Shown here: positions 123 through 41,475 of the stretch, one piece after another | How positions within the stretch are numbered: the stretch's first letter is position 1 | Layout: each line of letters opens with the position of its first letter | From: an uncultured Bacilli bacterium | Lineage (GTDB): Bacteria; Bacillota_I; Bacilli_A; RF39; UBA660 | Length of the DNA: 44,376 nucleotides | Assembly: GCA_944363795.1 (NCBI GenBank) | Contig: CALVVG010000004.1 | Span: 1 to 44,376 of the forward strand | Direction of reading: 5' to 3' | Position numbers and translations under genes: made by a program | The notes under the pieces: generated by a model | Seen by the model: the letters and a program-made list of their open reading frames with translations, nothing else | Told to the model about the DNA's origin: nothing | Database searches by the model: none

Positions 123-1403
123 ATGAAAAAAATAGTAGTAGGAATAATATTAATAATAACAATAATAGCAGTAGGAAGTTATCAATATTTAGCGAGTAAA
201 AATGAAGTAAGTACAAAAGAAAAACAGATAAAAAGTACAAATATGCTCACCATGATGTTAGAAACAGAAGCAGGAACAGGAGTTTATGAAGAAACAACAG
301 CCAGTGAGTGGCCGATTGATGGCTATGTATTTAATGAAACATTAAGTAAATGTGAAAATGATAGTGAACTTTCATGGGATAATAATTTAAAAAAAGTAAT
401 ATTTGCATCGACTAAAGCAGATAAGTGCTATATTTATTTTGATATAAAAAAAGATCCAACATTTGCTGATTATATTATAGATGAAGTATATAGTGTGGAT
501 GGAACAAATGGATTATATTATCATGATGGACAAGGAACATATACAAATGCCAATCAAGAAGCTGGAGATAATTCATATCGCTATAGTGGTGCGAATCCCA
601 ATAATTATGTATGCTTTGGGAGTGATGCTGCAACCTGTCCAAATGATAACTTATATAGAATAATAGGGTTATTTGATGATGATAAAGATGGAATATATAA
701 TATTAAATTAATCAAACATGATTATACAACAAGTGATATTCTAGGAACAGATGGTAGAGATTATGTAGGATTATTACAATCCTTTATAATTGATAATTAT
801 AAAGGAAATATGGATACTAATACTATAGCAACATATAGATGGAATAATGATGAAAGTATAAGTGAATGGGGATCAAATAATTGGACTACTAGCGAATTAA
901 ATATTATTAATTTAAATGACAACTACATAAACTATTTATATAGTATAAATAGCAAATGGGTAGAAATGATAGACAATACAACTACATGGTATTTAGGAGG
1001 AGTAGATGGTAGTGATTATACAGCCAAAGAATTTTATGAAGGAGAACGGAATAATTTAAGCTATGGTAATAATCCAATAACTTATAAAAACCAAATAGGT
1101 TTAATGTATCCTAGCGATTATGGATATGCTATTAGTTCAGAAGGCTGGAGTACTAGTTTGCATTATTATTATAATGAACCATTAATAGCAAATAATTGGA
1201 TGTTTATGGGATTGAATGAGTGGACAATAACCCATTATTTGTATGACAAAAGTTCCGTATATCGTTTTTATTATGACGGTGGTTTTAGTTATGATACAGC
1301 AGATAGCGTTGGGGTTGTAAGACCAACATTTTATCTTACTAGTAATGTTCTAATAATGGAAGGCAATGGTAGTTTAAATAATCCATATAGATTAAATTTA
1401 TAA
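123..1403 (+). CDS. Surface-anchored lectin-like variable protein, type I anchor
   Basis: This 426-residue protein is predicted to be membrane-anchored and extracellular. Residues 1-25 form one hydrophobic anchor after Lys-Lys. The following type I module carries a TMMLETEAGTG motif and two cysteines (SKCEN and DKCYIYFD). The shared C-terminal module follows: YYHDG, a Cys pair (NYVCFGSD and TCPNDN), an acidic DxDxDG calcium-type loop at residues 185-190, a GLMY..DYGYA segment, then a variable stretch before R-P-T-F-Y-L. The ATG at 123 is chosen because AGAGGTG lies just upstream; the ATG at 99 lies inside the promoter. The same architecture recurs at 40318, and the C-terminal half recurs at 8783, 10449 and 13422. 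I do not recognise a named family with certainty. The end resembles C-type-lectin-like ligand-binding tips, so adhesion or ligand binding is inferred. Confidence 0.75.
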   Translation: MKKIVVGIILIITIIAVGSYQYLASKNEVSTKEKQIKSTNMLTMMLETEAGTGVYEETTASEWPIDGYVFNETLSKCENDSELSWDNNLKKVIFASTKADKCYIYFDIKKDPTFADYIIDEVYSVDGTNGLYYHDGQGTYTNANQEAGDNSYRYSGANPNNYVCFGSDAATCPNDNLYRIIGLFDDDKDGIYNIKLIKHDYTTSDILGTDGRDYVGLLQSFIIDNYKGNMDTNTIATYRWNNDESISEWGSNNWTTSELNIINLNDNYINYLYSINSKWVEMIDNTTTWYLGGVDGSDYTAKEFYEGERNNLSYGNNPITYKNQIGLMYPSDYGYAISSEGWSTSLHYYYNEPLIANNWMFMGLNEWTITHYLYDKSSVYRFYYDGGFSYDTADSVGVVRPTFYLTSNVLIMEGNGSLNNPYRLNL

Positions 1404-6139: not shown

Positions 6140-7235
6140 AAGTTTGATATAAATCTACGTATTCTTCAAGTGTTAATTTTTTTTCATATATGATTTTAGC
6201 AGCATCTTTACCAACGTATCTTATATGCCAATTTTCAAATTGATATCCAGTTATATTCGTTTTATCTTCCGGAAAACGAATAATAAAACCAAAACGATAA
6301 GCGTTATTACTAAGCCATTTATAATTTTCATCTGTTAATCGAGTATTACCTGTTAAATTGGTATTTTTTAAATCAATAGATAATCCTGTTTGATGTTCAG
6401 AATACCCTGGTCTTGCTGAGTAAGTATCTGCCGCTTTTACTCCATCGCTAGCTACATAATTATTATATAATGTTTTTTGAAAATTATAGTTTCTAAATGC
6501 GGTAGTAGGCATAAAATTTATGTTTTCTTCTTCTTTAGCAGCTTGCTGTAATTCTTTAAATGGTTCAACAATAACCGAACGCATTGGTACATTATTACCA
6601 TAAGCACCTGGAAGGTATTCTAGATCATCTGGTGTATAATTATTTGGTAAATAATTATATTTATTGACTAATACATATAAACTATTTGGATCATTTACTT
6701 CTTTAGTGTTAGTATAAACTGGTAAATCTAAATTTATATTTACATAGGTAACAATGGTTTGGTAACTATAATTATTTTTTTGATAATAGGCATTATATCT
6801 ATCTATTTTACTAACATCAAAGTTAGTAAATTCATAATAATTATGAATATCGATATAATCTAAATTAGATAATTTAGTTATGTTACTATCACTAAGTTTC
6901 ATAATCAAATTTATTTCTTTGCCACTATATCCCTTTGGTAAAAAAGTAGTTAATATATAACTAAAATTTTCTTTATCTGTAAATTCTATATCTTTATATT
7001 CATTTAAATATTTTTCATCATAAATATTATTTAGTAATACATATTCTAAAGTTTTTGAATAATTGTCAGATGAAATATTATTAACTTGCATTAGTTTTTC
7101 AACTTCACTAGTAATTTCCTCTTTTGTTTTAAATATTTTATTATAAATTAAATAAATACTGCTAAAAACAATGAGTAATAATAAAAATAATATAATAAAT
7201 TTTCCTTTCTTCTTTAATTTTTTTCTTTTTTTCAC
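6132..7235 (-). CDS. VanY/DacB-type D-Ala-D-Ala carboxypeptidase (M15)
   Basis: This 367-residue membrane-anchored protein has a basic N terminus and one membrane segment (about residues 12-30). A novel-looking spacer follows, and then an M15B peptidase domain at about residues 215-345. Zinc and catalytic residues are visible: His281 and Asp288 in ARPGYSEHQTGLSIDL, and His337 in NWHIRYVG. The family trims D-Ala from peptidoglycan stem peptides outside the cell. The start is GTG with AAGGTGAT five bases upstream. No van resistance genes are nearby, so a housekeeping cell-wall or spore-cortex role is more likely than glycopeptide resistance. It is divergent from ffh. Confidence 0.9.
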   Translation of the reverse strand: MKKRKKLKKKGKFIILFLLLLIVFSSIYLIYNKIFKTKEEITSEVEKLMQVNNISSDNYSKTLEYVLLNNIYDEKYLNEYKDIEFTDKENFSYILTTFLPKGYSGKEINLIMKLSDSNITKLSNLDYIDIHNYYEFTNFDVSKIDRYNAYYQKNNYSYQTIVTYVNINLDLPVYTNTKEVNDPNSLYVLVNKYNYLPNNYTPDDLEYLPGAYGNNVPMRSVIVEPFKELQQAAKEEENINFMPTTAFRNYNFQKTLYNNYVASDGVKAADTYSARPGYSEHQTGLSIDLKNTNLTGNTRLTDENYKWLSNNAYRFGFIIRFPEDKTNITGYQFENWHIRYVGKDAAKIIYEKKLTLEEYVDLYQTSY

Positions 7236-8724: not shown

Positions 8725-9420
8725 AAGCCTTTTTAATATTTAAAATTAATGGTATAATTTTCAAAGAATAGGTGATTAAATTATGGTAAAAACAAAAAGA
8801 AATATTTTACTAGCAATAATCATAGTATTAATTCTTGTAGTAATAGCGTTATTGATAGGAAGATTCACATATTCATATTTAGCAGCTCAAACTAGTGAAG
8901 ATTTAAAAAATGAAGGAGAAACCACAGCAAGTGGAGATACAATAATTTTTAGTAAAGGTAATGATTTATCAATTAGTGCAACAACAGATAATTTTAATGC
9001 AACGAGTGGGAATTTAACTGATACTACTAATCCATCAGTAAGATTAGTGGCAAGTAGTAAAACAAATGAAGCAACAGCTACTTATTATGCTGGTATAAAA
9101 ATAAATAAAAATACTTATACTTATTCAGGTAGTGAAGCAGAACTAATATTGACGGTAAGAGATGAAACTGGGCAAATATTAACTACAAGTGCTGATGCCT
9201 TAGATTATGTAACGGTAAATGGAGTATCAGGTTTTGATATAACTGGAAAAACCGGAGCATTTAATATAGTTAAAGAACACTTAATTAGTACTAATTCATC
9301 AACTGCAGGAACAACACATACTTGGACATTTACATTGACATTTGTTAATTTAGATATAGATCAATCAATAAATGAAAATGCGGAACTAAGTATGGATGTA
9401 GTATTACAAAAAGACGAAAT
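8725..9420 (+). repeat. Direct repeat copy A (promoter plus type II anchor module)
   Basis: This stretch matches 10391-11086 at a constant offset of 1666 bases, with only scattered substitutions. It covers the extended -10 promoter, the leader and the first ~213 codons of the surface gene. Similarity stops abruptly where the C-terminal modules begin. Confidence 0.9.
8750..8758 (+). promoter_or_regulatory. Extended -10 promoter of surface gene at 8783
   Basis: TGG-TATAAT without a good -35. The same promoter region is duplicated before the gene at 10449, as TGT-TATAAT at 10416-10424. Confidence 0.6.
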
Positions 9421-10378
9421 AAAGTTGAGTTTGGCTGAACTATGTGATAAAAATTTTTTGACAGATTGTATTATTGAATGGTTATATACTGAAGATGGTA
9501 TAAATGATTTGTATTATCATGATGGAATGGGGGCTTATACAAATGCTTCTGAAGAAGCAGGTGATAATAGCTATCGCTATAGTGGAGCAGATCCAAATAA
9601 TTATGTTTGCTTTGGAAGTGATGAAGAAATATGTCCGGATAATAATCTTTATCGAATAATTGGATTATTTGATGATGATAAAGATGGGAAATATAAAGCT
9701 AAATTAATTAAAGCTGATTTAGCAAATAACGAATTATTAGGAGAAAATGGTAATTATAATACAAATGTATTTGTGGATACTGATTTAGAATATTATAAAG
9801 GAAAATTAAAAACGATAAATAGGTATTATTGGAATGATGACACTCAAAGTAATAACTGGAATGAAAGCGAATTAAATACGATTAATTTAAATGAAAATTA
9901 TATGAGTAGTATAAACAATAATTGGCAAAATTTAATAGATTATAGTAATTGGATAATTGGGGGTAATAGTATTGCAAATATATATGAAGTATCGGTTAAA
10001 AATGCATATAATTTTGAAATAATTACTCCAATAGATGCAACTAAATATTCTGATGAAATAGGACTAATGTATGTAAGTGATTATGGATATGCAGCCAGTC
10101 CTGAAAATTGGCAAACTATCTTATATGAATATGATAATGATTTAAATCGAAACAATAATTGGTTATATTTAGGCATTTTAGAATGGACAATTACAAGAAT
10201 AACTGATTATAATGATTATGTTTCTGGAATTAATTCTTCTGGTAGGGTTGGGTATGATTATATTGGTTATAGTGAAGCTGTTAGACCAGTATTTTATTTA
10301 AAAGAAAATGTAATATTAAATTCTGGAGATGGTACGATTAGTGATCCTTTTAGGATTATTTTGGCAAACAATGTTTAA
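8783..10378 (+). CDS. Surface-anchored lectin-like variable protein, type II anchor (copy 1)
   Basis: This is a 531-residue predicted extracellular protein. Residues 7-30 are a single membrane anchor. Residues 35-213 form a Ser/Thr/Asn-rich type II module with beta-strand character, almost identical to that of the next gene. The shared C-terminal module follows: YYHDG, Cys pair (NYVCFGSD and CPDNN), DDDKDG calcium-type loop, LMYVSDYGYAASPENW, and a variable Tyr/Gly/Ser stretch before AVRPVFYL. An extra Cys pair (LCDKNFLTDC) lies at the join, unlike the sister genes. GGTGAT stands before the ATG. The role is inferred to be ligand binding or adhesion at the cell surface. Confidence 0.75.
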   Translation: MVKTKRNILLAIIIVLILVVIALLIGRFTYSYLAAQTSEDLKNEGETTASGDTIIFSKGNDLSISATTDNFNATSGNLTDTTNPSVRLVASSKTNEATATYYAGIKINKNTYTYSGSEAELILTVRDETGQILTTSADALDYVTVNGVSGFDITGKTGAFNIVKEHLISTNSSTAGTTHTWTFTLTFVNLDIDQSINENAELSMDVVLQKDEIKLSLAELCDKNFLTDCIIEWLYTEDGINDLYYHDGMGAYTNASEEAGDNSYRYSGADPNNYVCFGSDEEICPDNNLYRIIGLFDDDKDGKYKAKLIKADLANNELLGENGNYNTNVFVDTDLEYYKGKLKTINRYYWNDDTQSNNWNESELNTINLNENYMSSINNNWQNLIDYSNWIIGGNSIANIYEVSVKNAYNFEIITPIDATKYSDEIGLMYVSDYGYAASPENWQTILYEYDNDLNRNNNWLYLGILEWTITRITDYNDYVSGINSSGRVGYDYIGYSEAVRPVFYLKENVILNSGDGTISDPFRIILANNV

Positions 10379-10390
10379 ATATTATAGAAT

Positions 10391-11086
10391 AAAGCTTTTT
10401 AATATTTAAAATTAATGTTATAATTATTAAAGAATAGGTGATTAAATTATGGCAAAAACAAAAAGAAATATTTTACTAGCGATAATCTTAGTATTGATTC
10501 TTGTAGTAATAGCGTTATTGATAGGAAGATTCACATATTCATATTTAGCAGCTCAAACTAGTGAAGATTTAAAAAATGAAGGAGAAACCACAGCAAGTGG
10601 AGATACAATAATTTTTAGTAAAGGTAATGATTTATCAATTAGTGCAACAACAGATAATTTTAATGCAACGAGTGGGAATTTAACTGATACTACTAATCCA
10701 TCAGTAAGATTAGTGGCAAGTAGTAAAACAAATGAAGCAACAGCTACTTATTATGCTGGTATAAAAATAAATAAAAATACTTATACTTATTCAGGTAGTG
10801 AAGCAGAACTAATATTGACGGTAAGAGATGAAACTGGACAAATATTAACTACAAGTGCTGATACTTTAGATTATGTAACGGTAAATGGAATATCAGGTTT
10901 TGATATAACTGGAAAAACTGGGGCATTCAATATAGTTAAAGAACACGTAATTAGTACTAATTCATCAACTACAGGAACAACACATACTTGGACATTTACA
11001 TTGACGTTTGTTAATTTAGATATAGATCAATCAATTAATGAAAATGCGGAATTAAGTATGGATGTAGTATTACAAAAAGATGAAAT
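10391..11086 (+). repeat. Direct repeat copy B (promoter plus type II anchor module)
   Basis: Partner of 8725-9420. The high identity at silent sites as well as coding sites suggests a recent tandem duplication or continuing gene conversion between the two surface genes. Confidence 0.9.
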
Positions 11087-11933
11087 TAATATGGGAAAAT
11101 TTACAGATTATATAATAAATAATATATATACACAAGATGGAGAAAATGGCTTATATTACCATGATGGTATAGGAACATATATTAATGCTGATCAAGAAGC
11201 AGGTGATAATTCATATCGCTATAGTGGTTCAAATCCAAATAACTATGTTTGTTTTGGAAGTGATGCAGCAACATGTCCAGCAAATAATTTGTATCGTATA
11301 ATCGGCTTATTTGACGATGATAATGATGGAGTGTATAATGTTAAATTGATAAAGTCAACTACTAATGGTCGAGCTATATGGGATGGAACATATGATGAGC
11401 ATAGCAATTTGTGGTCTGCAGATATAAAACCGGATATATATTATACTTTAAATACAGACTTTTGGAACACCTTAACATCACAATGGCAAAGTAAAATAGA
11501 TGCAACTTATCAGTGGAAAGTAGGAGGAATGACTTGGAATACTTCATATACAATTAAGCAATATTATGATGTGGAAGTAGGAACTAATCAAAATGGTTAT
11601 GTGGAAACAATGGCAATAGGATTAATGTATGTAAACGATTATGGTTATGCTTCTAGTCCTGAAAAATGGCTAGAGTCAATTGGTGATCCTAATGTTGAAA
11701 ATTATGGTGAAACTGATTGGTTATTTTCAGATAAATTAGAATGGCTATTAACCCGTACTTCTGATAGCTCAAATTTAGCATTTATTTTATACTCAGACAT
11801 GGGTGGTACAATTGATGGATATAACAGCGTTTATGCAGATTATGATATAAGACCAACGTTTTATTTAAAAAACGATGTTATGCTTAATGGTGGTACTGGT
11901 ACAGAAACTAATCCATATCGAATCAGTTTATAA
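10449..11933 (+). CDS. Surface-anchored lectin-like variable protein, type II anchor (copy 2)
   Basis: This 494-residue tandem paralogue of the preceding gene has the same membrane anchor and type II module (residues 1-213), joined to a different version of the shared C-terminal module. It contains YYHDG, Cys pair (NYVCFGSD and TCPANN), DDDNDG loop, VGGMTW, LMYVNDYGYASSPEKW and a variable stretch before DIRPTFYL. The C-terminal half is closer to the copies at 13422 and 40318 than to its own tandem neighbour, which points to module shuffling. It has its own extended -10 promoter. No terminator separates it from the liaF-like gene 20 bases downstream, so these are probably co-transcribed. Confidence 0.75.
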   Translation: MAKTKRNILLAIILVLILVVIALLIGRFTYSYLAAQTSEDLKNEGETTASGDTIIFSKGNDLSISATTDNFNATSGNLTDTTNPSVRLVASSKTNEATATYYAGIKINKNTYTYSGSEAELILTVRDETGQILTTSADTLDYVTVNGISGFDITGKTGAFNIVKEHVISTNSSTTGTTHTWTFTLTFVNLDIDQSINENAELSMDVVLQKDEINMGKFTDYIINNIYTQDGENGLYYHDGIGTYINADQEAGDNSYRYSGSNPNNYVCFGSDAATCPANNLYRIIGLFDDDNDGVYNVKLIKSTTNGRAIWDGTYDEHSNLWSADIKPDIYYTLNTDFWNTLTSQWQSKIDATYQWKVGGMTWNTSYTIKQYYDVEVGTNQNGYVETMAIGLMYVNDYGYASSPEKWLESIGDPNVENYGETDWLFSDKLEWLLTRTSDSSNLAFILYSDMGGTIDGYNSVYADYDIRPTFYLKNDVMLNGGTGTETNPYRISL

Positions 11934-11953: not shown

Positions 11954-12631
11954 ATGAATAAAGCTAATAAAATATTATGGGGTATTGTATTTATAGTTCT
12001 TGGTATTGTAGCAGCATTAAATGCATTAGATATCATAAAATTTAACATTTTCTTTAATGGCTGGTGGACATTTATTATAATTGTTCCTTGTTTTGTTAAC
12101 TTATTTAATGATACCAATGAAAGTAAAATTAGTAGTATATTTGGCCTTATTATAGGTATTTTATTATTGTTAATGTGTCAAGGATGGTTAAGTTTTGATT
12201 TGTTAATTAAATTGTTTATTCCAATTGTTTTAGTGTTTATTGGACTATATTTAATATTTGGAGGACTTTTTATAAATAAAATAAATGAAAAAATAAAAAG
12301 TAATAAGCAAAAAAACATAGAAAATATTTTAGCAACCTTTTCTGAACAAATAATAAATAAAAATGAAGAAAAATTTGATGGTGCTAATTTAGATGCTGTA
12401 TTTGGAAGTATTGTTCTTGATTTAACAAATGCTAAAATCAAAAATGAATCAGTAATTAGTGCTAGTGCTATATTTGCTAGTATAGATATTATAGTACCAA
12501 AAGATTGTGAAGTAAAAATAAAATCAATACCAATTTTCGGTGGAGTTACAAATAAAAATAAAAATAAGAACAATAAAAATGTTATTTATATTGAAGCTTT
12601 TGTCTTATTTGGAGGTATTGATATAAAATGA
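11954..12631 (+). CDS. LiaF-like envelope stress membrane protein
   Basis: This 225-residue membrane protein has four hydrophobic segments in the first ~110 residues (starting ILWGIVFIVLGIVAAL and WWTFIIIVPC). A cytoplasmic or wall-facing C-terminal domain follows, with the FGSIVLDLTNA and IFGGV strands seen in LiaF/VraT-type proteins. In Bacillus, LiaF holds the LiaSR two-component system off until the cell wall is attacked. No LiaS or LiaR is in the window. It overlaps the next gene by four bases (ATGA), so the two are translationally coupled. It sits between two surface-lectin genes in one apparent operon. Confidence 0.78.
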   Translation: MNKANKILWGIVFIVLGIVAALNALDIIKFNIFFNGWWTFIIIVPCFVNLFNDTNESKISSIFGLIIGILLLLMCQGWLSFDLLIKLFIPIVLVFIGLYLIFGGLFINKINEKIKSNKQKNIENILATFSEQIINKNEEKFDGANLDAVFGSIVLDLTNAKIKNESVISASAIFASIDIIVPKDCEVKIKSIPIFGGVTNKNKNKNNKNVIYIEAFVLFGGIDIK

Positions 12632-13404
12632 ATGATGTTCATAAGATAATTAAAATTATAGCAATACTATTAGCAATATTTATTATTTGTTTGATAATAA
12701 ATGGTATATTTATGTTTTTAAATTTATTTATTAATCAAGATAATGATAATAATATTGTAAAAGTATATGAAAATGTAAATAAATTAGAAATAGATTTAAA
12801 GAATTCAAATTTAAAGATTTTAAAAGGAGAAAAATTTAAAATTGAAGCTAGTAATGTTAGTGATAGCTTTAAAGTAAAACAGGATAATACTACATTAAAA
12901 ATTGATGAAAGTAGTTTTTGGTTTTTTAATAATAATGGTGGTGATGTAGTAATATATATTCCTAAAAATATTGATGAATTAAGTATTGATACTGATTCCG
13001 GTAAAGTAAATATTGATAATATTATTACTAATGAGTTAGAATTAGATAATGGAATAGGTGTAGTTGAAATAACTAATTCGAGTTTTAATAACACTATTAT
13101 TGATGGAGGTACTGGAAATATTAATATAACTAATACTTACTTAAATAATTTAGAATTAAATGTCGGTATTGGTAAAGTTGATATAAATGGTTATATATAT
13201 GGAAATAGTGAAATAGATTCTGGTATAGGATCAGTAAATTTAGATTTATTAGGTAGTGAAACATTATACAAATTAATTATTGATTCAGGTATTGGTAATG
13301 TTAAAATAAATGATAAAGATTATAATGAAACAATATATGGCAATGGGACAAATAAAATAGATATAGATGGTGGAATAGGAAGTATAAATATATATTTTAA
13401 TTAG
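12628..13404 (+). CDS. DUF4097-type beta-repeat envelope protein
   Basis: This 258-residue protein has one N-terminal membrane segment (residues 7-32), followed by a rod of repeated short beta strands. The motif I-D-x-G-I-G-x-V/I-x-I recurs about every 20 residues (SGIGSVNL, SGIGNVKI, GGIGSINI). This is the DUF4097 pattern, commonly found beside LiaF- or PspC-like envelope-stress proteins. Its molecular role is unknown. Its start overlaps the stop of the LiaF-like gene, and the next surface-lectin gene starts 17 bases after its stop, so all four genes from 10449 to 14867 look like one transcript. Confidence 0.78.
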   Translation: MNDVHKIIKIIAILLAIFIICLIINGIFMFLNLFINQDNDNNIVKVYENVNKLEIDLKNSNLKILKGEKFKIEASNVSDSFKVKQDNTTLKIDESSFWFFNNNGGDVVIYIPKNIDELSIDTDSGKVNIDNIITNELELDNGIGVVEITNSSFNNTIIDGGTGNINITNTYLNNLELNVGIGKVDINGYIYGNSEIDSGIGSVNLDLLGSETLYKLIIDSGIGNVKINDKDYNETIYGNGTNKIDIDGGIGSINIYFN

Positions 13405-13421: not shown

Positions 13422-14867
13422 ATGAAAACAAAAACACGAATAATATTATTAAGTATTATTGGAATATTAATAATTATAACTATTGTTTTAGGTGTAACTT
13501 ATGCATTTATGAGACCGGTGAAAGAATCAAGTTCAATAACTAGTGTAGATATTAAAAGTTGTGCTAAAATTACTCTAACTGATACGGGACAATCTATTAA
13601 TTTAAGTAATACATATCCGATGAGTAAAAATAAAGCACTACAAACAACTCCATACACTTTTACTGTAAGCTCTACATGTGAATCATATGTTGGATTTAAT
13701 TTATATTTAGCAACATTAAATACTAATACTATAGATGCCAGTAATATTCATTATATAGTAACTGAAAATAGTTCAAAAGAAATATTAGAAGAAGGTATTT
13801 TAGGAGATGCTACAAATGGATTAAGTGATTTTAATAGTGAAGAACAAGAACAATTAAATAATGGTATTAATGGAACATTTAGTCATGTTTATAAAATATA
13901 TGTAGGCAGTATTCCATATCAAGGAGAAGCAAGCTTTGATTTATATTTATATATAGATGGTGAAGTAACTGATAATACTACAATGGGTAAAACTTTTGTA
14001 GGTGGTGTTGCTGTTAAATCTATAGATAGAGAACCGGATCCAGAAATTACAACATTAGCAGATTATATAATAAATAATGTCTATACAACAGATGGCGAAA
14101 ATGGGTTATATTATCATGATGGAGTAGGAACATACACGAATGCTGATCAAGAAGCCGGAGATAATTCATATAGATATGCAGGGGCAGATCCTAATAATTA
14201 TGTCTGTTTTGGAAGCGATGCAGCAGCATGTCCAAATGATAACTTGTACCGAATCATAGGATTATTTGATGATGATCAAGATGGAACATATAATATTAAA
14301 TTAATAAAAAATACAAGTATTGGAAATTATGCTTGGGATAGTGAACGTGATAATACATGGGATGCAAGTACAAAACCAGATATAAGAAATACATTAAATA
14401 ATACATTTTTAGGAACAATAAATCCAACATGGCAAGATAAGATAGCAATACACATATGGAAAGTAGGAGGAATGGCTCAAGATAATTCAGCAACAGCAAA
14501 AGAATATTACAATACAGAAATAGGAAGTAGCTCAAGTAGTACAACAGATAGTATGAAAATAGGATTAATGTATGTAAGTGATTATGGATATGCAGCAGCA
14601 CCAAGTAATTGGACAACAGAATTATATAATTATGAAAGTGCAACAAGTACAAACTGGCTATATTTAGGTTCTCATGAATGGACAATTTCCCGCAGTACAG
14701 GCACTACGGTTTATGCCTTCTATGTGTACCTCACAGGGTATGTTTGCTACCGCGGCAACGACAATGTGACTTTTTCGTTTGCGGTGCGTCCGTCCTTCTA
14801 TCTAGAATCTAGTGTGAGCATTACTGGTGGAACAGGAACTTCGAGTGATCCTTACAAAATAGCTTAG
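13422..14867 (+). CDS. Surface-anchored lectin-like variable protein, type III anchor, GC-rich tip
   Basis: This is a 481-residue protein with a membrane anchor (residues 7-29) and a third kind of N-terminal module (residues 30-205), which carries CAKITLTDTG and an STCESY cysteine. The shared C-terminal module follows, with YYHDG, NYVCFGSD/ACPNDN, DDDQDG, VGGMAQ and LMYVSDYGYAAAPSNW. From codon CGC at 14691 onward the composition jumps from about one-third to about half G+C (56 of 110 bases in 14691-14800). This change falls exactly at the hypervariable tip before AVRPSFYL. The atypical block continues past the stop into two hairpins. The tip looks replaced or rewritten as a unit. Confidence 0.78.
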   Translation: MKTKTRIILLSIIGILIIITIVLGVTYAFMRPVKESSSITSVDIKSCAKITLTDTGQSINLSNTYPMSKNKALQTTPYTFTVSSTCESYVGFNLYLATLNTNTIDASNIHYIVTENSSKEILEEGILGDATNGLSDFNSEEQEQLNNGINGTFSHVYKIYVGSIPYQGEASFDLYLYIDGEVTDNTTMGKTFVGGVAVKSIDREPDPEITTLADYIINNVYTTDGENGLYYHDGVGTYTNADQEAGDNSYRYAGADPNNYVCFGSDAAACPNDNLYRIIGLFDDDQDGTYNIKLIKNTSIGNYAWDSERDNTWDASTKPDIRNTLNNTFLGTINPTWQDKIAIHIWKVGGMAQDNSATAKEYYNTEIGSSSSSTTDSMKIGLMYVSDYGYAAAPSNWTTELYNYESATSTNWLYLGSHEWTISRSTGTTVYAFYVYLTGYVCYRGNDNVTFSFAVRPSFYLESSVSITGGTGTSSDPYKIA

Positions 14868-14879
14868 GGCGGTACAAAT

Positions 14880-14913
14880 GCTCGTCTTCGCGCCTTTACG
14901 GTGCGAGGCGAGC
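14880..14913 (+). repeat. GC-rich hairpin 1
   Basis: The 14880-14894 arm pairs with 14900-14913 (14 bp, one bulged T, two G-T pairs) around a TTTAC loop, 13 bases after the surface gene stop. There is no T tail, so it is not a normal terminator. Confidence 0.75.
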
Positions 14914-14961
14914 GGGGATGTAATTTAGCTATTGATTAGTAAGGTTGAACGATAAAATTGA

Positions 14962-15021
14962 TGCAATAATTCTGCCACGGCTGCGCGAAAGTGCAGGAGT
15001 GGCAGTGGCCCATTATTGGCA
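14962..15021 (+). repeat. GC-rich hairpin 2 with GAAA tetraloop
   Basis: CTGCCAC (14972-14978) pairs with GTGGCAG (14999-15005), and CTGCGC (14981-14986) pairs with GTGCAG (14991-14996), around a GAAA loop. An outer AATAAT/ATTATT pairing adds length. There is no T tail. A hairpin with GAAA loop downstream of a variable region is what DGR targets carry in Bordetella phage. Confidence 0.75.
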
Positions 15022-15045
15022 TATAATATGGATAGTTGGAATAAT

Positions 15046-15417
15046 TCATTGGTTCTTTAAATTTTCTAATTCTTTTTGAATTTTTTGAACAGCATTAAGT
15101 AGGAAGTCAACTTCTTCTCTTTGAGTTTGGTTACTTCTTCCTTGTTCGTTATCAGTAAATGGCCCGCCTTGGCCATTTTTGTGTTTTTGTGAATTAATAT
15201 TTAAATTGTTATTTTCCAGTCTTGCTTCAATTAATTGTTGTTGGGCAGCATGAGTTAAAATATATTGGCCAACTAAAATAAGCCAATTACCTATAGAATT
15301 TTGTTCGTTAGCATTATAATCTCCCACACTTGCAAATCCCACCGTAACAGCAAGCATTGCAAATAAATGAGGATCGGTACTGGGAGGAAAATTAGTATTA
15401 TGATAATTTTTATCCAT
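15046..15417 (-). CDS. Small hypothetical protein with central hydrophobic patches
   Basis: I do not recognise a named family for this 123-residue product. The N-terminal 65 residues are mildly hydrophobic and carry DPHLFAMLAVTVGF and NSIGNWLILVGQYI. The middle is Asn/Gln-rich and the last 35 residues form a probable coiled coil (VDFLLNAVQKIQKELENLK). No good ribosome site precedes the ATG. It is divergent from the SleB-like gene. Its 3' end runs toward the GC-rich hairpins. A role near the membrane is possible but unsupported. Confidence 0.65.
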   Translation of the reverse strand: MDKNYHNTNFPPSTDPHLFAMLAVTVGFASVGDYNANEQNSIGNWLILVGQYILTHAAQQQLIEARLENNNLNINSQKHKNGQGGPFTDNEQGRSNQTQREEVDFLLNAVQKIQKELENLKNQ

Positions 15418-16812: not shown

Positions 16813-16820
16813 GTGAATTG

Positions 16821-17228
16821 ATGGATAATAAAAAGGGTTTTACATTAGTTGAATTACTAGGAGTAATAATAATATTAGGTTTAGTCATAACTATATCTTT
16901 TACAAGTATTAATGCTGTTAAAAAAAATTCTTTGAAAAAACTAGTAGAGACAAAAGAAAATGCTATAGTTCAAGCTGCTATTTTATATGGTCAAGATAAT
17001 CCTAATGTTTTAGTAGAAAATAGTGTTACAAATGATTGTCAAGGCAACCAATATTGTGCAAAGTTAACAGTAGAATTTTTAATTGAAAACAATTATATTG
17101 ATAGTGAATATATAAACAATGATAATGGTAAATATGATATGATTAATGATGTTACTGGTGAAAGTATGAGTAATCAAGAAGTATTAGTGTATCGCCAAAA
17201 TAATCGAATATATGCTAAACTTTTGTAA
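16821..17228 (+). CDS. Type IV prepilin-like protein (first)
   Basis: This 135-residue protein has a class III signal: a short basic leader, then G-F-T-L-V-E-L with Glu5 of the mature form, and a 20-residue hydrophobic helix. The peptide would be cut between Gly and Phe by a PilD-type peptidase. The globular part has a Cys pair (NDCQGNQYC) likely to be disulfide-bonded. It is placed oddly, between engB and der, without assembly ATPase, platform protein or peptidase in the window. ATG 16821 follows AGGTGA; the TTG one codon upstream is rejected. It may be a pseudopilin of a competence or secretion system encoded elsewhere. Confidence 0.82.
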   Translation: MDNKKGFTLVELLGVIIILGLVITISFTSINAVKKNSLKKLVETKENAIVQAAILYGQDNPNVLVENSVTNDCQGNQYCAKLTVEFLIENNYIDSEYINNDNGKYDMINDVTGESMSNQEVLVYRQNNRIYAKLL

Positions 17229-40266: not shown

Positions 40267-40296
40267 TTGATTTTTTTTTTTTTTTTTTTGTATAAT
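40267..40296 (+). promoter_or_regulatory. T-run promoter, candidate phase-variable switch (copy 2)
   Basis: TTGATT (40267-40272) and TATAAT (40291-40296) are separated by 18 bases. The spacer lies inside a run of 19 T (40271-40289). A short stem TCAATT/AATTGA ends at the -35, so the run may also be the terminator tail of the upstream PBP gene. The spacer is three bases shorter than in copy 1. Confidence 0.68.
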
Positions 40297-40317
40297 GGGA
40301 AAAATAGAGGTGTTGTC

Positions 40318-41475
40318 ATGAAAAAAATAGTAGTAGGAATAATATTAATTATTACAATAATTGGAATAGGAGCTTATAAATATATATTTAATAATAGAGA
40401 AGTAATACTTGATAAATCAAAAGAGCAGATTAAGAGTAATGACATTTTAACAATGATGTTAGAAACAGAAGCAGGTACTGGAATATATGAAGAAACTACA
40501 GCTAATGATTGGCCATCGGAAGGATATGTATTTAATGCAGAACTTTCTAAATGTGAAAATGGTGGAATAGTCACATTTAATGAAGAGACAAAAAAAATAA
40601 ATATGCAAACAAATATAAGTGATAAATGTTACGTTTATTTTGATATAGCTAATCAAACATTTGCTAATTATATTATTGAAAATGTATATACTGAAGACGG
40701 AGCAAATGGACTATATTATCATGATGGATTAGGAACATATACAAATGCTGATCAAGAGGCGGGAGATAACTCATATAGATATTCAGGGGCAGATCCAAAT
40801 AATTATGTTTGTTTTGGTAGTGAAGAGACAACATGCTCAGAGGACAATCTATATCGAATAATAGGACTATTTGATGATGATAATGATGAAATATATAATC
40901 TTAAATTAATAAAATCAACAAGATATGGAAGTTATGAACGGGATTCTGGAAATAGTAATACATGGAACGAAACAGAAAAACCAGATATACATACAACATT
41001 AAATACAACATATTGGAATACATTAAGTAGTGAATGGCAAAACTTGATAGATGCAACATACCAATGGCAAGTTGGTGGCATGGCATGGAATGGTACAAAT
41101 ACAGCAAAACTATATTATAATGTTGAAATAAAAAATCAAACCGGATATATAGAAACGATGAAAGTGGGATTAATGTATGTAAGTGATTATGGATATGCAG
41201 CCAGTCCGGAAAATTGGCAGACAGCATTATCAAATTATTCTAATACAACTAATACCAATAATAACTGGGTGTATTTAGGTGCAAATGAATGGACTATTTC
41301 ACGCAGATCGGACCTTCCAAACCCTGTGTTCTCCATATCGGATTCAGGCTCAATCTACGCCGAAGCCCTACGTTTTTTTGTGTGTATATATCGCCCATCG
41401 TTCTATCTCAATTCTGAAGTAAAACTTGTTAGCGGATCAGGTACATCAACAGATCCATATAGAATTTCCATTTAA
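40318..41475 (+). CDS. Surface-anchored lectin-like variable protein, type I anchor, GC-rich tip
   Basis: This 385-residue protein shares the leader, membrane anchor and type I module of the gene at 123 (TMMLETEAGTG, SKCENGG, DKCYVYFD). The shared C-terminal module follows: YYHDG, NYVCFGSE/TCSEDN, DDDNDE (calcium-type loop with the final Gly changed to Glu), VGGMAW and LMYVSDYGYAASPENW. From CGC at 41302 the composition rises to about half G+C (49 of 100 bases in 41301-41400). The tip differs from all other copies until YRPSFYL, after which the gene is AT-rich again. AGAGGTG precedes the ATG. It lies behind a T-run promoter. Confidence 0.78.
   Translation: MKKIVVGIILIITIIGIGAYKYIFNNREVILDKSKEQIKSNDILTMMLETEAGTGIYEETTANDWPSEGYVFNAELSKCENGGIVTFNEETKKINMQTNISDKCYVYFDIANQTFANYIIENVYTEDGANGLYYHDGLGTYTNADQEAGDNSYRYSGADPNNYVCFGSEETTCSEDNLYRIIGLFDDDNDEIYNLKLIKSTRYGSYERDSGNSNTWNETEKPDIHTTLNTTYWNTLSSEWQNLIDATYQWQVGGMAWNGTNTAKLYYNVEIKNQTGYIETMKVGLMYVSDYGYAASPENWQTALSNYSNTTNTNNNWVYLGANEWTISRRSDLPNPVFSISDSGSIYAEALRFFVCIYRPSFYLNSEVKLVSGSGTSTDPYRISI

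Follow-up and report, generated by a model that had tools for sequence, protein, structure and literature searches.

A G+C-rich tip in a lectin-like gene of an uncultured Bacilli bacterium: very probably a variable region served in trans by a diversity-generating retroelement

Why should the tip of a gene that is otherwise about 29% G+C turn abruptly G+C-rich? The gene in question lies in a 44,376-nucleotide stretch of DNA (the window), which is contig 4 (C4) of an 868-kb assembly of an uncultured Bacilli bacterium (G000; 42 contigs, 82% complete). The original prediction had counted 56 G or C among the 110 bases 14691-14800 and set the onset at the CGC codon following a W-T-I-S motif; the count is exact and the onset is as described, with bases 13422-14688 of the gene at 29.4% G+C. 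Its extent, 14689-14812, covers the tip but stops too early, as high G+C persists past 14812, through the stop codon (14867) and into the non-coding sequence beyond it, which carries two GC-rich hairpins. Of 44,267 sliding 110-base segments, only 20 reach 56 G+C, all within 14683-14800 or 14805-14925, so that nowhere in the window is G+C higher than in the tip and its flank. Two sources for such a tip had been proposed, namely a diversity-generating retroelement (DGR), which copies a template repeat (TR) into a variable region (VR), and a gene-conversion cassette. The accompanying statement that the window holds neither a reverse transcriptase (RT) nor a template agrees with our searches: the RVT_1 profile has no match on C4 (the three in the genome lie on C2, C3 and C5), and no template-like copy was found in the window. 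We consider it very probable that 14689-14787 is the VR of a DGR acting in trans, and the locus is laid out accordingly.

13422-14867, plus strand: putative DGR target gene, an open reading frame of 481 amino acids with an N-terminal hydrophobic segment and a C-terminal variable lectin-like domain.
14061-14864, plus strand: DUF6273-like domain of predicted C-type-lectin fold, carrying the variable tip (AlphaFold2, VIA-align and profile match).
14689-14787, plus strand: VR; changes fall on 20 of 37 template adenines and on 0-1 of the 56 remaining positions.
14779-14793, plus strand: end of TR/VR homology, putatively IMH-like by analogy with BPP-1; GCGGTGC-TCCG is common to VR and TR, and divergence follows.
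14788-15034, plus strand: VR tail and stop codon, then the 3' flank with its hairpins; almost unchanged between sister species.
14880-14913, no strand assigned: hairpin 1, after the stop codon; 14 pairs, 5-nt loop, RNA fold -23.7 kcal/mol, compensatory changes.
14972-15005, no strand assigned: hairpin 2, with a GAAA loop; RNA fold -23.7 kcal/mol.

Searching the genome with 14660-15040 returned another target gene, on C19, that is 90% identical and has the same flank, as well as VR-like tips on C6, C5 and C23 and a short VR-tail match on C10. C19 also carries two A-rich fragments that align with the first 57 VR bases.

C19 of G000 (L011), 337-393 and 1119-1175, minus strand: two truncated TR copies, each ending where the (AAC)n run begins.

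Over these first 57 bases the truncated TR is identical to an intact TR in the sister species G028, the closest relative, where a C19-type locus holds, in order, a target tail, hairpins, the intact TR, a MutS_I-like open reading frame and a truncated Avd. The original prediction expected differences to be nearly confined to template adenines, and this is the pattern observed: the window VR differs from the G028 TR at 20 of 37 adenines and at none of 56 other positions (Fisher p 1.5e-10). In this alignment the window VR is six bases longer within the (AAC)n run. The six in-frame gap placements tried gave 19-22 adenine and 1-2 other changes; forcing gaps into frame leaves at least one non-adenine difference, GTC to GTT. 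Against the truncated TR of its own genome, the VR is changed at 11 of 22 adenines and 1 of 35 other bases over 57 nt. The near-copy beside an RT that the prediction pointed to was thus found in part: copies with the adenine signature exist, but those in the same genome are truncated, and neither C19 copy adjoins an RT. An intact TR of this VR type was not found in the 82%-complete G000 assembly, which yielded only the two 5'-half copies.

The signature extends beyond a single gene. Across 11 VRs from G000 and G028 compared with the G028 TR, 198 of 391 adenines and 46 of 608 other bases are changed (C 24/234, G 14/198, T 8/176), the less clean VRs being those of G028 contig 9, C5a and C6 (13/55, 8/55 and 7/55 non-adenine changes, respectively). 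VRs of two other relatives, G011 and G027, differ from the G011 TR at 50 of 108 adenines and 0 of 177 other positions, although two of the three VRs (G011 C3 and C16) are identical, and that TR was therefore tested on two distinct VRs. The shared VR of these two loci (L094 and L096) may reflect a recent duplication, conversion or an assembly copy. Length differences between VRs and TR are multiples of three and fall within or close to the (AAC)n run; three-base slippage on AAC repeats was already put forward in the part of PMC12875486 available to us, and such length variation is thus not new here.

The orthologous locus offers a second line of evidence. Between 14411 and 20387 the window is in synteny with G028 contig 38, and identity between the two is 266/278 (95.7%) ahead of the VR, 69/95 (72.6%) within it (p 4e-9 against upstream), 78/79 between VR and stop codon, 166/166 over the flank as far as 15034, 347/372 (93.3%) in the next open reading frame and 514/582 in a gene that we take to be ysxC-like. 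Hypervariability is confined to the VR while its flanks are conserved, which is the pattern that mutagenic homing predicts. The original prediction had called for tip variation among strains; the variation is there, at 23 of 37 template adenines and 1 of 56 other positions (p 3e-11), in a comparison of sister species rather than strains. The syntenic orthologue also lends itself to testing how one template may keep several remote targets variable, and of the birth and retirement of such targets.

These figures bear on two other accounts of the tip. That a receptor-binding loop is simply under positive selection, or that GC-rich DNA was imported horizontally, would fit the position of the tip within a predicted lectin-type domain and a composition sharply unlike the rest of the gene. 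Selection, however, should also have altered C, G and T template positions, as the 23/37 against 1/56 between orthologues does not show, and the same adenine bias recurs in related TR-VR pairs in cis (see below); plain selection as sole cause is ruled out by this bias, and we regard this account as a whole as extremely unlikely. Gene conversion, by which the tip would have come from another paralogue without reverse transcription, draws on the domain and hairpin flank being about 88-90% common to the C19 paralogue, and on a G028 paralogue that has a VR-stop-hairpin cassette with an old tip downstream in frame. Conversion would not hit template adenines while sparing 55-56 of 56 other positions, and no paralogue with the window's VR was found. 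As the origin of this VR it is therefore very improbable, and the adenine bias rejects it as sole cause, although conversion may well have spread cassettes between genes.

In mutagenic homing by a DGR, a TR elsewhere in the genome, rich in AAC and AAT codons, would be transcribed; a DGR-type RT with Avd would copy it, misincorporating at adenines; and the cDNA would replace the VR of the target gene, guided by the conserved VR 3' end and probably by the hairpins after the stop codon. Altered codons in a C-type-lectin-type domain would then yield new ligand-binding faces on a fixed scaffold. The composition of the tip follows from the same process, since the TR is 43% G+C (A 37, C 22, G 18, T 16) with non-adenine positions at 71%, and replacing A by any base turns it into a VR of 52% G+C (51/99) inside a 29% gene. 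A compositional oddity is thereby tied to a known hypermutation mechanism, and in AT-rich genomes DGR targets remote from the RT can be spotted by a local rise in G+C.

A candidate enzyme is encoded in the same genome. DGR-type RTs are recognized by GxxxSQ and YxDD motifs, and the RT at C5:31556-32647 carries IGNMTSQ and YMDD; like the adjoining Avd, it has no stops. It is preceded by a MutS_I match above cut-off (PF01624, 2e-5) and an Avd match (NF033474 E 3e-6, bAvd PF22296 0.002, both below curated cut-offs); the Avd of the relative G011 matches phrog_3206 at 4.7e-9. This module stands behind a target gene, a hairpin and an internally deleted TR (L013, about 6680-6730), which lost about 60 bases at the short repeat AATGCG. 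The true template of that cis target was not recovered, the TR of the nearest relative giving 22/37 adenine and 11/62 other changes. The RTs on C2 and C3 were discarded as candidates for the DGR enzyme; they are retron-like, with RT_Ec107-like as best PADLOC match, and C2:34092-34652 (L016) and C3:43728-44303 (L015) are candidate retrons of G000. In G028 the intact TR is accompanied by no RT match, and the Avd open reading frame breaks off (assembly 89% complete). We infer that either the C5 RT or one absent from the incomplete assembly serves the window VR.

Related systems also occur among the relatives, those identified being uncultured Bacilli metagenome-assembled genomes, a number of them of goat, sheep or roe deer origin. 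RT matches occur in 30 of 59 genomes (G000 counted, and including G058 with many distant ones), and VR or flank DNA in 26 of the 59 searched, all of the same genus. Of 80 related RT loci, 77 have a MutS_I-like and 79 an Avd-like open reading frame that ends within 1.5 kb of the RT. At 49 of the 80 the same module has a TR-VR pair beside it in cis, with 780 of 858 mismatches at adenine, a share inflated by a filter that kept only pairs with at least 75% adenine mismatches; by eye, one of the 49 (L157) looks unlike a real TR. The identical filter applied to C, G and T passes 0, 2 and 2 of the 80 loci. The exact TR pattern had 0 matches in viral contigs, and viral relatives of the RT, among the 80 matches listed, are at most 38% identical. 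Taken with the adenine signature, the related templates and the sister-species tip differences, the RT, Avd and MutS_I genes of this genome support the DGR reading of the tip.

A variant of this explanation is that an ancestral DGR made the VR and that TR and RT have since been broken or lost, leaving the tip frozen. Both TR copies of this type in G000 are truncated with no RT beside them, and some hairpin-less paralogue VRs have gathered non-adenine changes (C6 and C5a, as above). The window VR, however, is among the cleanest of the 11, both of its hairpins are intact and its flank is identical to that of the sister species, which together point to recent mutagenesis; an RT and Avd without stops are present on C5. 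We hold a relic to be possible though rather unlikely, and a DGR may still act on the window VR, with current activity unproven because no intact TR was found in an 82%-complete assembly.

The hairpins may be part of the machinery. Hairpin 1 keeps 14 of 14 pairs in 11 of 17 distinct sequence matches, with compensatory changes at several pairs (such as G-C/A-T, C-G/T-A and G-C/C-G); four of the other six resemble register shifts, and L032, L154 and L150 are partly mispaired, these classes overlapping depending on how strictly L150 is counted. Rfam returned nothing above a gathering score over 14600-15300. In the BPP-1 phage, efficient homing requires a hairpin close to the VR, and in phage DGRs it lies 4-34 bp away, according to the portion of PMC3240598 available; by analogy, the hairpins here could act in homing. 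Non-adenine changes number 32/275 in five hairpin-less VRs and 5/223 in four with both hairpins (p 5e-5), in a grouping made after seeing the data and omitting two VRs with hairpin 1 in which no hairpin 2 was found (C30 4/55, C32 5/55).

The target belongs to a large family. About 22 paralogous lectin-like genes were counted in the 868-kb assembly (after merging of 32 matches), at least four of which have one VR type and are probably mutated in trans. Tip G+C in the 19 readable paralogues falls at 49-62% in seven, 43-44% in two and 22-34% in ten, so that the jump marks a subset rather than the whole family. The window holds four further members (99-1403, 8783-10378, 10449-11933 and 40267-41475), for none of which did a convincing template emerge from the 49 TRs compared (the G028 TR and 48 cis-pair templates, L157 being left out). 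One of them has a raised tip.

41280-41385, plus strand, in the gene 40267-41475: tip of a second window paralogue with G+C raised to 0.46-0.49; adenine bias weak.

This tip is possibly an old VR. On G028 contig 30 (L085), downstream of a VR, stop and hairpin 1, the end of a different tip (VRPVFYLK) appears in frame, a single case of what is possibly a cassette inserted ahead of an old tip, the fossil of a target-gene capture. Tentatively, in this gut lineage of small genomes, VR, 3' end, stop and hairpin might form a movable cassette that makes paralogues new targets of one RT in trans, with genes that lose the hairpin drifting into a fixed repertoire, as the non-adenine counts given above for VRs with and without hairpins would suggest; we rate this as somewhat doubtful. 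If it were true, the genome would hold both live and archived binding specificities.

As for what is diversified, translations of TR and VR show asparagine-rich template positions replaced on a constant scaffold. The N-terminus is hydrophobic by eye (a membrane anchor or signal), which would suggest a surface location; the protein is probably membrane-anchored. No Pfam family at E<=0.01 was found for the whole protein or for residues 1-215. The variable domain, modelled with AlphaFold2 from a 60-sequence alignment (residues from 14067), reached a mean pLDDT of 94.2, an earlier model from 7 sequences being poor (41.7) and left unused; the VR spans model residues ~208 to 241. VIA-align placed the model closest to the DUF6273 domain of 9qa6 (Z 16.8, 21% identity across 191 residues; profile match E 7.9e-13), followed by the C-type lectins CLEC-2, CLEC12A, LOX-1 and CEL-IV (Z 5.0-5.5), C-type lectins and formylglycine-generating enzymes together lying at Z 3.8-5.5. 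Nineteen viral models matched with E up to 0.001, of which six are named DUF6273. The window protein itself has no match to Pfam DUF6273, and two relatives score 17.6 and 20.0 bits against a cut-off of 23.5, whereas phage homologues score 113-135 bits; the window domain is thus a distant relative of DUF6273 rather than a scored member. A DUF6273/C-type-lectin fold is predicted, and the protein would be expected to bind a ligand whose identity the DUF6273 matches (phage receptor-binding proteins, a gut IgA peptidase) make a testable question. Around the target gene, 11954-13404, directly upstream, encodes a LiaF-like membrane protein and a DUF4097 protein, and 16818-17228, between two GTPase-like genes, a protein with a type IV pilin-like N-terminal methylation motif.

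Among the papers listed in our literature searches, none dealt with this lineage, judging by title or start of abstract. The DGR itself is of a known kind; what is notable is the setting, with an unusually large paralogue set and several remote targets. It resembles the BPP-1 DGR (mtd/TR/Avd/bRT) in adenine-specific TR-to-VR transfer, an Avd beside the RT, a CLec-type target, a conserved VR 3' end and a hairpin after the VR. It differs in residing in a cellular genome, with several target paralogues on separate contigs, a second hairpin and a MutS_I accessory gene; hairpin 1, with a 5-nt loop, stands at a distance of 92 bp from the end of the VR, unlike the closer hairpins with a GRNA tetraloop that the available part of PMC3240598 gives for phage DGRs. 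The MutS_I domain (MSL, PF01624) is a known DGR accessory, and the small MutS domain-I protein encoded next to Avd and RT matches the MSL systems, no difference being established from the text of PMC10053308 at hand. As in Treponema denticola, the DGR is chromosomal, with targets far from the core and some left where RT and TR were lost; in the section of PMC4891356 available, the accessory there is HRDC and the target family another, as opposed to MutS_I plus Avd here. The closest solved structure, 9qa6, has as its N-terminal domain the DUF6273 of a Thomasclavelia ramosa IgA peptidase; that domain thus belongs to a peptidase, and a VR goes unmentioned in the accessible text of PMC12402451. 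Finally, gut-phage DUF6273 targets, namely the tentaclins (PMC10743442) and those of Faecalibacterium prophages (PMC11792537), likewise carry the VR on a DUF6273/C-lectin-like fold; as far as the available portions of both reports describe them, they are phage receptor-binding proteins, in contrast to the bacterial paralogue family found here, with its distant DUF6273 match.
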